This document shows positions 1,627 through 4,971 of a stretch of 52,432 nucleotides of DNA, piece by piece. The notes below the pieces were generated by a model. The model made no database searches and had not been told where the DNA came from. It worked only from the letters and a program-made list of their open reading frames with translations. Source of the DNA: Opitutaceae bacterium (GTDB lineage: Bacteria; Verrucomicrobiota; Verrucomicrobiia; Opitutales; Opitutaceae); the NCBI GenBank assembly GCA_024711005.1, contig JANJTQ010000124.1, forward strand, positions 1-52,432. The letters are read 5' to 3'. How positions within the stretch are numbered: the stretch's first letter is position 1; each line of letters begins with the position of its first letter. A program made the translations under genes and the position numbers.

Positions 1627-2739
1627 ATGCGTTTTCTTTCACTCATCTCGACGAACCTGCGCCGGCATCGATTGCGTGCGTTGATCGGCGTCGCGGGCAT
1701 CGGTTTTGGTGTGGCAGCCATGCTGGCGATTTTGGCCATCGTGACCGGTGCGATCGGCATGTTCGAACGCATCCTGTCGACGGACAGCCATTATTTGGTG
1801 TTCGAGCGCAACGTGTCGGATCTGTTCTTCAGTTCGGTCACCACGGAGCAAGTGCGCGACATCCGCGCGTTGCTTCAAGTCGAGGCGGCGCATCCGCTGC
1901 TCTTCGGCATCGTGTCGGCGGCGGGGAATCCGGTGGTGACTTGTTTCGGAATCGAGGCCGACGATCCGCGCCTCGTGCGTGGCGACTGGCGGGCGGGTAC
2001 GCGGGAGCAGTTTGGCAAGACGCCGGACGAAGTTTACCTCGGAGCCCGGGCGGCGGAGTTCCTTCACGCGGAGTTTGGCGGGACGGTCGAGATCGGGCGC
2101 GGCACGTTTAAGGTCGGGGGGATTTTCAAAAACGAAAACGGTTTTGAGGACGGCGGGGTGTTTCTGCCGCTGCCGGCGGCGCAGGCGTTTTTTCATCGTG
2201 AAGGTGCGGCCTCGGTGGTGGCGGTGAAGTTGCGGGACCGGGCGCAAGGCGCGGCGTTCAAGACGGCGGTCGAGGCGGCGCATCCCGGAGTGATCGCGCT
2301 GGAGAACCGCGAATTCAGTCAGAGCTACAACAGCTTTAAGATTCTCAACTTCACGGCGTGGGCGGTGGGCATTTGCGCGTTTGGTCTCGGTGGCCTGGGC
2401 GTGGCGAACACGATGCTGCTTTCGGTGTTCGGGCGCATCCGGGAAATCGCGGTGCTGCGCGTGTGCGGGTTTTCGGAGCGGCAGGTTGCCGCGCTCATTT
2501 TCGGCGAGGCGACGGTGATCGCGTTAGGCGGGCTCGTGGTGGGTTTTGGTCTCGGCCTGCTGCTGCTCGCGGTGGTCGGACATATGCCCCAGTTTAACGG
2601 CTACGTGCAGGCGCGCGTCGAACCGCTGGTGGTGGTGGGCATCATCGTCACGGCCCTGATCACCGCAGTGGCCGGAGCGATTTACCCCGCCCGCTTCGCC
2701 GCCCGCATTCAACCCGCGGAGGCGCTTCGCTATGAATGA
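1627..2739 (+). CDS. ABC transporter permease, MacB/LolC-FtsX type
   Basis: 370 aa. One membrane helix at residues about 15-45 (RALIGVAGIGFGVAAMLAIL), then a long periplasmic domain (about 50-240), then three helices near the C-terminus (AVGICAFGLGG, IALGGLVVGFGLGLLLL, VVVGIIVTALITAVAGAIYPA). This is the four-helix FtsX/MacB_PCD arrangement of type VII ABC systems, which move lipoproteins or peptides mechanically instead of through a channel. The ending IQPAEALRYE is a typical FtsX-family terminus. The cognate ATPase follows at 2935 after an unusual 195-bp gap that holds a palindromic repeat doublet. The substrate is unknown; linkage to the YceI-like protein suggests an envelope lipid or lipoprotein. 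Confidence 0.85.
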   Translation: MRFLSLISTNLRRHRLRALIGVAGIGFGVAAMLAILAIVTGAIGMFERILSTDSHYLVFERNVSDLFFSSVTTEQVRDIRALLQVEAAHPLLFGIVSAAGNPVVTCFGIEADDPRLVRGDWRAGTREQFGKTPDEVYLGARAAEFLHAEFGGTVEIGRGTFKVGGIFKNENGFEDGGVFLPLPAAQAFFHREGAASVVAVKLRDRAQGAAFKTAVEAAHPGVIALENREFSQSYNSFKILNFTAWAVGICAFGLGGLGVANTMLLSVFGRIREIAVLRVCGFSERQVAALIFGEATVIALGGLVVGFGLGLLLLAVVGHMPQFNGYVQARVEPLVVVGIIVTALITAVAGAIYPARFAARIQPAEALRYE

Positions 2740-2776: not shown

Positions 2777-2870
2777 AGCCCAATTTGTCACTTATTAAGT
2801 GACAAATATGGCCGGGTCGACGCGTTGTTCGAAAACCGAGTTTGTCACTTAATAAGTGACAAATTGGGCT
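2777..2870. repeat. REPIN-like palindrome doublet A
   Basis: Two near-perfect palindromes lie in inverted orientation. Copy 1 (2783-2807) has 12-bp arms ATTTGTCACTTA with a single central T. Copy 2 (2841-2863) has 11-bp arms TTTGTCACTTA with a central A. With flanks, 2777-2806 and 2841-2870 form a perfect 30-bp inverted repeat around a 34-bp spacer. The centres are 57 nt apart, exactly as in the second doublet at 4312-4392. The doublet sits in the only sizeable gap of an otherwise tightly packed operon. Each unit could also form a hairpin or bind a dimeric protein. Confidence 0.8.
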
Positions 2871-2934
2871 CGGAGTCGGAGGGCGGATTAAGCGTGTCGC
2901 CGGGGGCGGGCGGGTCGAGGCGGGAGGGAGGGAG

Positions 2935-3612
2935 ATGAGCAGGCGAGGTGAGCTTGTCGTGAAGGCGCGCGATGTGTCGAAAACGTACGACCAAGGACGC
3001 ATCCGTGTGCTGCAGGACGTGACGCTCGACGTCGGCGCGGGCGAGGTGGTCGCGTTGTGGGGCGCGTCGGGCTCGGGCAAGAGCACGTTGCTGCACTTGA
3101 TCGGTGGACTGGATACGCCGGATCGCGGCACGTTGTCGGTGTGCGGTCTTGATCCTTGCGACGAGGCCAGTCGCACGGTGCTGCGCCGACGTCATCTCGG
3201 CTTCGTCTTTCAGCTGCACAACCTGATCCCGGATCTCACCGTCGAGGAAAACATCCGGGTGCCCGCGCTCGCTGCCGGTCGTGGTGTCGTCGAGACCGCG
3301 GCGCGCGTTCGCGAGCTGGTCGGGCAGGTCGGGCTTTCCCATCGGATCAGACACCGGGTGCAGGACCTGTCGGGCGGCGAACGGCAGCGGACGGCGATCT
3401 GTCGTGCGTTGATGAACGCGCCGCGTCTGTTGCTCGCGGACGAACCCACGGGTTCGCTCGACGAGCAGACGGGCGGGGCGATTTTTGGGCTGTTGAAAGA
3501 ACTCGCGGCGCGCGAGCGGGTGGCGGTGGTGCTGGCCACGCACGAGCGACGTTTCGCCGAGGCGTGCGACCGGATCCTTCGTATGCGCGACGGGCAACTG
3601 TCGGAGATCTGA
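2935..3612 (+). CDS. ABC transporter ATPase, LolD/MacB type
   Basis: 225 aa, the normal length for LolD-like ATPases. Walker A is GASGSGKST, Q-loop FVFQLHNLIP, signature LSGGERQR, Walker B LLLADEPTG, D-loop SLDE, and the switch histidine lies in LATHERR. It powers the FtsX-type permease encoded at 1627-2739. The ATG at 2935 is preceded by a purine-rich stretch (GGGAGGGAGG) that would serve as a strong ribosome-binding site. Nine bases separate its stop from the next ATG, so it is co-transcribed with the oxidase-like genes. It lacks any C-terminal extension. Transported substrate unknown. Confidence 0.92.
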   Translation: MSRRGELVVKARDVSKTYDQGRIRVLQDVTLDVGAGEVVALWGASGSGKSTLLHLIGGLDTPDRGTLSVCGLDPCDEASRTVLRRRHLGFVFQLHNLIPDLTVEENIRVPALAAGRGVVETAARVRELVGQVGLSHRIRHRVQDLSGGERQRTAICRALMNAPRLLLADEPTGSLDEQTGGAIFGLLKELAARERVAVVLATHERRFAEACDRILRMRDGQLSEI

Positions 3613-3621
3613 GCGGGTGCC

Positions 3622-4971
3622 ATGCAGCCGAGCCTTCCAAATTCGGGTAGCCGCCGAGGTAGCGAGACTGAGTTTCTTCAGTCCTTGAGTTGGTTTGTTG
3701 CGCGCCATGCCTTGGGTTGGTTGGCGATGGCGAATGCGGTGGGGGTGTGGCTTGCGGCCGAGTTGGTGTGGCCGGCGCTGGGCGATGCGCTCGCGCCGTT
3801 GAGTTACGGGCGTTGGATGCCGTTGCACATGAACTGGCAACTTTACGGTTGGTGCGCGTTGCCGCTGGTCGGTGTCTTGCTGGCGTGGTGTGTGGACGGG
3901 CGACATCCGCAGGTGGTCGGGCAGGTTCGTGTTGTGCTGGGCGCATGGTCGCTGGCACTCGTGCTGGGCGGCGTCGCCTGGCTGGGCGGGGTGACGAGCG
4001 GAAAACTGTTTTTGGACTGGCACGGTTGGGCGCGCGCGGTGTTGCCGCTGGCGATGATCGTGTTGTGGACGGTCTGCGCGGCGCATGCCTGGTGGCGGCG
4101 GGATGTGGATAGTGGCCGGGTGAAGGGGCTGCGCGGCGTGATTTTGGCCGGACTGCTGTTTGTGCCGGGGCTGCTTTATTGGTCGGCGGGGCGCGAGGTG
4201 TATCCGTCGGTCAATCCCGACAGCGGCGGGGCGACGGGCACGAGTCTGCTCGGGTCGACGCTGGGCATCGTGACGGTGTTCGGGCTCCTCCCCGTGATGC
4301 TTCGCCTGCCGGTTTGTCACTTATTAAGTGACAAACTGCCGGGTGAAAACGGGCAGGAGCTCAAACCAATTTGTCACTTAATAAGTGACAAACGGGTTTG
4401 GTCCGCGGGGTGGTTTTGGGGGGCGTTGGCGGGGTCGTGGGTGGTGTTTGCGGGGATTGATCATGGCCATGCGTCGCATCACGGGTGGGCGCAGGTCGGG
4501 GGACTTGGTTTGTTGATCGGCTGGGTGCCGCTGGCGTGGGGTTACTTTCGTCGGTTTGAATGGGAGGCGCCGGCGCGACCTTGGTTGTACGGGGCGTTTG
4601 TCTGGTGGCTGTTGCTCGTGGTCACCGGATGGCTGTCGTTTTTGCCCGGCGTTTCGGAACGGTTGAAATTCACCAACGGGCTGGTGGCGCATGCGCACCT
4701 CGCGATGGCGGGGCTGGTGACGAGCGTGAACTTTGTGATCCTGCGTCAGCTTGCGCCGCGGAGGGAACCGCGTGGGAATTTTGCCCTTTGGCAGGGGGCC
4801 TGTGTGGTTCACGTGGCGGCGTTGCTGGCACTCGGTTGGTGGGAGCGGGACTACGCGGGCGATCTCTTTCGCGGAGAAACGTGGACACTGGTTTTATATG
4901 CGGTCCGACTGGCGGCCGGAGCGGTCATGCTGGCGGCGTCCGTGCGCTGGCTGGCGGCAGGAAAGGCGTGA
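3622..4971 (+). CDS. Divergent heme-copper oxidase subunit I-like (CcoN-like) membrane protein carrying a palindromic insert
   Basis: 449 aa with about ten to twelve hydrophobic segments. Features resembling cbb3-type subunit I are the second-helix motif YGRWMPLHMNWQLYGW (a histidine at the usual low-spin heme position), an HH pair in DHGHASHHGW, and an HxH in VAHAHLAMAG late in the protein. The gene product directly downstream has a CcoO-like cytochrome c, supporting the assignment. It is shorter and more divergent than true CcoN, so it may be a non-pumping or non-catalytic relative. Residues about 231-257 are encoded by a doublet of palindromes (VCHLLSDK and ICHLISDK) in a loop between helices, not expected in the family. 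NnrS-like or other heme membrane proteins are alternatives. Confidence 0.6.
   Translation: MQPSLPNSGSRRGSETEFLQSLSWFVARHALGWLAMANAVGVWLAAELVWPALGDALAPLSYGRWMPLHMNWQLYGWCALPLVGVLLAWCVDGRHPQVVGQVRVVLGAWSLALVLGGVAWLGGVTSGKLFLDWHGWARAVLPLAMIVLWTVCAAHAWWRRDVDSGRVKGLRGVILAGLLFVPGLLYWSAGREVYPSVNPDSGGATGTSLLGSTLGIVTVFGLLPVMLRLPVCHLLSDKLPGENGQELKPICHLISDKRVWSAGWFWGALAGSWVVFAGIDHGHASHHGWAQVGGLGLLIGWVPLAWGYFRRFEWEAPARPWLYGAFVWWLLLVVTGWLSFLPGVSERLKFTNGLVAHAHLAMAGLVTSVNFVILRQLAPRREPRGNFALWQGACVVHVAALLALGWWERDYAGDLFRGETWTLVLYAVRLAAGAVMLAASVRWLAAGKA
4312..4392. repeat. REPIN-like palindrome doublet B inside a coding sequence
   Basis: Copy 3 (4312-4336) has 12-bp arms GTTTGTCACTTA around a central T. Copy 4 (4370-4392) has 11-bp arms TTTGTCACTTA around a central A. 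The copies are inverted relative to each other and their centres are 57 nt apart, matching doublet A. The 33-34-nt interior differs from that of doublet A apart from a short GCCGGGT match. Both units read as CHLLSDK/CHLISDK in frame with the host gene. This is the only plus-strand frame of the palindrome without a stop codon; the other two contain TAA or TGA. Confidence 0.8.

Follow-up and report, generated by a model that had tools for sequence, protein, structure and literature searches.

The window, a stretch of 52,432 nucleotides from an Opitutaceae genome, carries an ABC permease gene (1627..2739, + strand; Pfam MacB_PCD and FtsX domains), an ABC transporter ATPase gene (2935..3612, + strand; Pfam ABC_tran) and a membrane-protein gene (3622..4971, + strand) whose match to Pfam COX1 is weak and below the curated cut-off; this last open reading frame adjoins a gene with a Pfam FixO / cytochrome c assignment. 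Between and within these genes lie four exact copies of the palindrome TTTGTCACTTA-W-TAAGTGACAAA, hereafter type A, forming two inverted doublets. Copy 1 (2784..2806, centre 2795) reads TATTA on the + strand and copy 2 (2841..2863, centre 2852) on the - strand, while in the second doublet copy 3 (4313..4335, centre 4324) is on the + strand and copy 4 (4370..4392, centre 4381) on the - strand. The centre-to-centre distance is 57 nt in both doublets and their spacer sequences are unlike; the four palindromes, two inverted pairs, 57-nt spacing and differing spacers described in an earlier sequence-only reading were thus all confirmed. The 11-mer arm, searched with at most one mismatch, has 8 matches in the window (0.15 expected), all 8 of them within the four palindromes, and a window scan for a 9-bp stem with a TATT(A/G/C) loop returned these four palindromes only.

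Doublet 1 (2777..2870) is intergenic, downstream of the ABC permease gene and upstream of the ABC ATPase gene, and has complementary outer arms (AGCCCAA / TTGGGCT). Folded as one long hairpin, it has a predicted free energy of -55.3 kcal/mol (2774-2873, RNA parameters). The orthologous gap holds a single copy in G009 (type A) and in G010 (type A').

Doublet 2 (4309..4395, + strand) lies in frame inside the membrane-protein gene, where it encodes residues 230-258 (VCHLLSDKLPGENGQELKPICHLISDK). To compare the site across genomes, the protein was aligned with 15 homologues, one from G010 and 14 from other genera. The doublet is missing from 14 of the 15 homologues, which have 2-8 residues where the window gene has 29, and in the fifteenth (G032) this loop holds just one palindrome, of another sequence (CTTGTCACGTATTACGTGACAAG). 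On the alignment, doublet 2 is therefore derived, having been inserted where the loop of the window gene tolerates it. A 491-aa antisense open reading frame (2845-4320, - strand), which overlaps both the ATPase gene and the oxidase-like gene, is probably spurious; our simple gene caller missed the in-gene pair because it preferred this antisense frame.

In the own genome, G000 (5.01 Mb in 351 contigs), 53 copies of the palindrome were found at no more than two mismatches, and the reversed control gave 0. The palindrome is therefore not restricted to the two window loci; its reported confinement to a 1.6-kb stretch holds within the window and fails genome-wide, and the proposal of a REP-like mobile palindrome is supported, as the repeat is dispersed, forms inverted doublets, is missing from some sites and also lies within genes. 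Among 52 of these copies examined, 38 are exact, 12 have one mismatch and 2 have two. A search of 56 genomes, G000 among them, matched the window palindrome type in 10. The looser core TNACYTAWTARGTNA gave counts of 54 in G002, 74 in G004, 80 in G009 and 56 in G010; G015, G021, G029, G030 and G032 had 6-8 each, and the control gave 0-2 per genome. The core ACCTATTRGGT adds G072 (45), G034 (24), G067 (16) and G069 (13) and remains at control level in genomes from the order's other families. By core counts rather than stem-by-stem inspection, ten Opitutaceae genera stand above control. Several G000 contigs end a few bases from a palindrome (C35:4-26, C306:9-31 and C309:12191-12213, where the contig ends at 12217), which is what an assembly interrupted at its repeats would show.

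From the fetched loci we collected 330 distinct quasi-palindromes, a set that fetching biased toward type A: 151 are exact type A, 66 exact type B (AGTGTCACCTATTAGGTGACACT) and 18 exact type A' (TTTGTAACTTATTAAGTTACAAA), and the rarer ones include type D (AGAGTAACC-TATTG-GGTTACTCT). In common terms the family is a TATTR loop in a 9-bp stem, and the stems vary by type yet stay complementary. Scanning 1.7 Mb of loci for this stem and loop found 344 hairpins; for the first 150 loci alone the count was 178, versus 0 after local shuffling. The own genome also has a second family of hairpins, of type D and in the SNPIGY phase (L001:987 and L184:3724), these being the two D copies examined among 32 ACCTATTRGGT cores counted there. 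In G034, hairpins of the form CAAGTAACC-TATTG-GGTTACTTG (L374-L376) are often flanked by CCAT / ATGG, a possible lineage-specific tag.

Outer arms (CCAANCCRR / YYGGNTTGG) prolong the palindrome and are often partly complementary. They pair better within copies than when permuted, the observed pairing being reached in 0/2000 permutations for type A, 6/2000 for B and 28/2000 for A'. In G010, the C/A letters of the two arms occur as 18 AA, 11 AC and 0 CC, versus 19.0, 8.9 and 1.0 expected; they vary independently, which means that this genome does not hold the arms to strict pairing. Exact half-sites fall within palindromes in 297/297 cases, and with none outside palindromes, a reading as DNA uptake sequences was rejected. 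Carriage by viruses was likewise rejected, as a pattern scan of viral_contigs gave 0 matches.

The doublet is not the main unit among the 52 examined G000 copies: 38 are single and there are 7 doublets, with spacings of 57, 57, 57, 56, 47, 46 and 44. Over all loci, 54 distinct doublets have spacings of 44-47, 51-54, 56-59, 66, 77-78 and 89-91. The 57-nt geometry of both window doublets is thus common elsewhere but not universal, and a strict 57-nt rule was rejected (range, 44 to 91). The best period of the 54 spacings is 11.15-11.35 bp, which none of 1,000 uniform draws reached; with each distance used once, 28 of 1,000 did. As the 54 doublets are not independent, we take the phasing of about 11.2 bp as a lead. 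A spacing of 54 bp is found in eight G072 doublets and in one more from G034; the spacers of the G072 doublets (L359-L367) are weakly alike around a ACTCCCGAGCGA-like center, as in shared-core REPINs. Larger arrangements also occur: at G002:C2:108236-108520 (L281-L287), four type B palindromes form an in-frame array with a 90-bp period, giving a peptide repeat of roughly 30 residues near the end of a gene that, judged by eye, looks like an RND efflux gene.

An intact palindrome has one open phase per strand, since its stop codons close the others. The open-phase peptides are CHL[LI]SDK for type A, CHL[LI]GDT for type B and SN[LP][LI]GY for type D. The simple gene caller, whose gene calling is crude and whose 54 rows include 2 duplicates and so represent 52 sites, placed 17 of the 52 distinct G000 copies within genes, excluding the missed window pair. 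Sixteen of these 17 are in the open phase, and the sole exception, L175, has lost the central stop through one base change. A codon-model classifier applied to four genomes placed 20/20 open in-gene copies in the open phase; one further in-gene copy was out of phase (L180:2463), and the simple caller sets that copy between two open reading frames. The classifier is too cautious, calling most flanks non-coding, those of the window in-gene pair included.

We compared 314 sites from sixteen genomes or record sets, each flanked by 150 bases or more. Of these, 151 are occupied in another species too, making 48 orthologous groups, and 28 of the 48 contain more than one palindrome type (18 of 48 when A', B' and D2 are counted as A, B and D). 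The sequence-only reading had held that the same insertions at orthologous loci in all distant relatives would suggest a regulatory or coding function; the sharing of 151/314 sites goes that way, yet the mixing of types in 28/48 groups does not, as it is unexpected for a plainly inherited coding or regulatory site. Type mostly follows species, and both A and B are present in G009 and in G001. Of the 16 groups in which G002 shares a place with an A or A' site elsewhere, 14 have B in G002, one has both B and D, and one has D. Orthologous A-A pairs (67 scored of 74) are 98% identical in the core and about 50% identical in gapless flanks. Where types differ at shared sites, both stem arms have changed together.

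Two genes illustrate this, and in both of them empty sites are known. In what we take to be a folK-pabB-type fusion gene, G000 and G004 have type A at the first linker site, G010 has an A/A' hybrid, G001, G007, G009 and G011 have type B, and G012 has GCATAACCTAATAGGTTATGC; the site is unrecognizable in G002, empty in G003 and G005, and outside coverage in G008. A second linker in this gene has another mix of types and is empty in G001, G003, G008 and G011. The other gene, presumably a cysteine desulfurase, has type A in G000, G004 and G009, a hybrid in G010, type B in G001 and G011, a D-like palindrome in G002 and degenerate ones in G008 and G012, whereas G003, G005, G006 and G007 have shorter genes that lack the site. 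Between G000 and G011, the desulfurase right flank is identical at 31/34 positions, the left flank at 22/34 and the 23-bp palindrome at 16. In a tree of both proteins with gappy columns removed, G001, which has type B, groups with G009 and G010 (support, 0.955), and this group nests in a clade (0.855) that otherwise has A or a hybrid at the desulfurase site. Taken with the pattern of types, the tree makes point mutation with inheritance alone an uneasy fit; palindromes that were replaced again and again while their places stayed fixed would fit, as would recurrent co-adaptation with a binding protein. We infer that palindromes have been replaced in place at orthologous sites, and it is this change of type while the place is kept that is, from the genome comparisons, new here.

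These palindromes are probably best explained as copies of a hairpin element of Opitutaceae that is mobile, REP-like and non-autonomous, and we judge the family to be RPE-like inside genes, with apparent in-place replacement of types. An enzyme acting in trans would copy the hairpin, probably from folded single-stranded DNA, and new copies would tend to insert at, or convert, related copies already in place; one type would thereby sweep the genome while old positions persisted. Doublets would form when a second copy landed beside a resident one, or would arise by neighboring duplication. Selection would purge copies that close or break genes, which would leave palindromes in linkers and loops. 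The sharing of almost half of the sites between species counts against freely moving elements, which need not show such sharing.

The enzyme that the sequence-only reading had suggested was a RAYT, and a REP/REPIN family of the classical kind, driven by a RAYT that acts in trans or has been lost in some genomes, would account for inverted doublets that are predicted to fold as long hairpins; Y1_Tnp (PF01797) matches are moreover present in 11/13 genus members and 7/8 other genomes. The distribution of the two does not agree, however, as G012 and G029 have palindromes and zero Y1_Tnp matches, whereas G003 has a Y1_Tnp match and is palindrome-free by the patterns used. Of 54 Y1_Tnp matches in total, 48 loci were fetched with up to 1.5 kb per side (20 of 26 matches in the genus, and 28/28 in the 8 other genomes), and no family hairpin was found in them, bar one chance-like 7-of-9 stem (L137); a linked RAYT was rejected on this result, and RAYT mobilization finds no support. 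GTAG or CTAC lies within 10 nt either side of the stem in 0/148 type A and 2/65 type B copies, which, together with the excess of singles over doublets, also speaks against such a family, and we regard it as quite improbable.

Only slightly better placed, and still unlikely in our view, is the possibility that the palindromes are recognition sites of a chromosome-organizing or regulatory DNA-binding dimer, held by selection and changing with the specificity of the protein; matS, Noc and SlmA sites are examples of sites for such proteins. Dyad symmetry, positions common to several species, near-identical A-A cores between diverged flanks, types that mostly track species and the independent arm letters of G010 would all be accounted for. 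The TATTG loops, however, break the dyad, A and B occur together in G009 and G001, doublets and arrays lie within genes, and outer arms pair in a copy-specific manner; the 23-bp core, in its near-invariance, also seems to exceed by far the length and strictness that recognizing a site in a 5-Mb genome would call for. Hairpins kept as RNA elements, acting in termination or mRNA stability, would be consistent with the predicted stability of the hairpins and with the position of some copies shortly behind genes, but many copies lie within coding sequence and the copies showed no fixed placement with respect to genes, making this by some way the least probable explanation.

If the mobile hairpin element is the right explanation, it can be extended into a more specific proposal, which we put forward tentatively and with rather less than an even chance of being correct. 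A candidate hairpin-copying system may overwrite dispersed 23-bp palindromes in place with the newest type, those in housekeeping genes included, leaving position and close flanks unchanged; G009 and G001 would be genomes in which A is part-way through replacing B, and doublets would be set in steps of about 11 bp. Such overwriting, if true, would mean that dispersed mini-elements are converted in a sequence-targeted way with no linked RAYT. With so many type-changed orthologous sites, natural genomes can be used to test conversion, re-insertion and the co-evolution of protein and site against one another.

Rickettsia palindromic elements (RPEs) are palindromes inserted in frame in unrelated proteins, and those of the RPE-1 type are about 100-150 bp long. 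The Opitutaceae palindromes also lie in frame within unrelated proteins, but are shorter and belong to another phylum, the likeness being one of description; we know of no type change at shared sites in RPEs. We found no published report of the palindrome family among open-licence PMC papers, and PMC12306157 mentions neither Opitut nor Verrucomicrob. The spread and persistence of REP-like palindromes are usually credited to a RAYT gene, and the Opitutaceae family shows no linked one in the 48 loci fetched. According to excerpts of PMC3116915, the REPINs of Pseudomonas fluorescens SBW25 are doublets, predominantly extragenic and mostly linked to a RAYT. Short palindromes, inverted doublets that form one hairpin, favored distances and several types per genome are common to the REP/REPIN sequences excerpted there and to our family, whereas the Opitutaceae palindromes are mostly single and often in genes, and no linked RAYT was found (PMC3116915).

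Also comparable are the GTAG and CGTC REPs of PMC3733652, which also discusses RPEs; in its excerpted text these REPs are small stem-loops with alternative, compensated stems, occurring as singles, as dimers with 20-100 bp spacers and in groups. REPs inside genes are described in the same text, for GTAG REPs most numerously in Opitutus terrae, so that intragenic REPs in Opitutaceae are an already known phenomenon, and CGTC REPs are given 8-9 bp stems, 4-5 nt loops and no dedicated transposase (PMC3733652). The Opitutaceae family shares the compensated stems, the singles, dimers and groups, and the in-gene copies, and its size matches that of CGTC REPs, but no conserved GTAG or CGTC tag stands beside the stem; CGTC or GACG lies within 10 nt either side in at most 11/148 type A and 4/65 type B copies. 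It may nevertheless be identical with one of the O. terrae families, the comparison being one of tags (PMC3733652). TGTC, there a variant of CGTC, is present in types A and B, but within the stem. Perfect palindromes in coding sequence are also reported, in the excerpted part of PMC6649704, from mitochondrial genes of an animal group, the Nematomorpha, where they reach 284 bp; we claim no relation. For annotation, the motifs CHL[LI]SDK, CHL[LI]GDT or SNLLGY in Opitutaceae proteins should be read with the warning that they can be repeat-derived.
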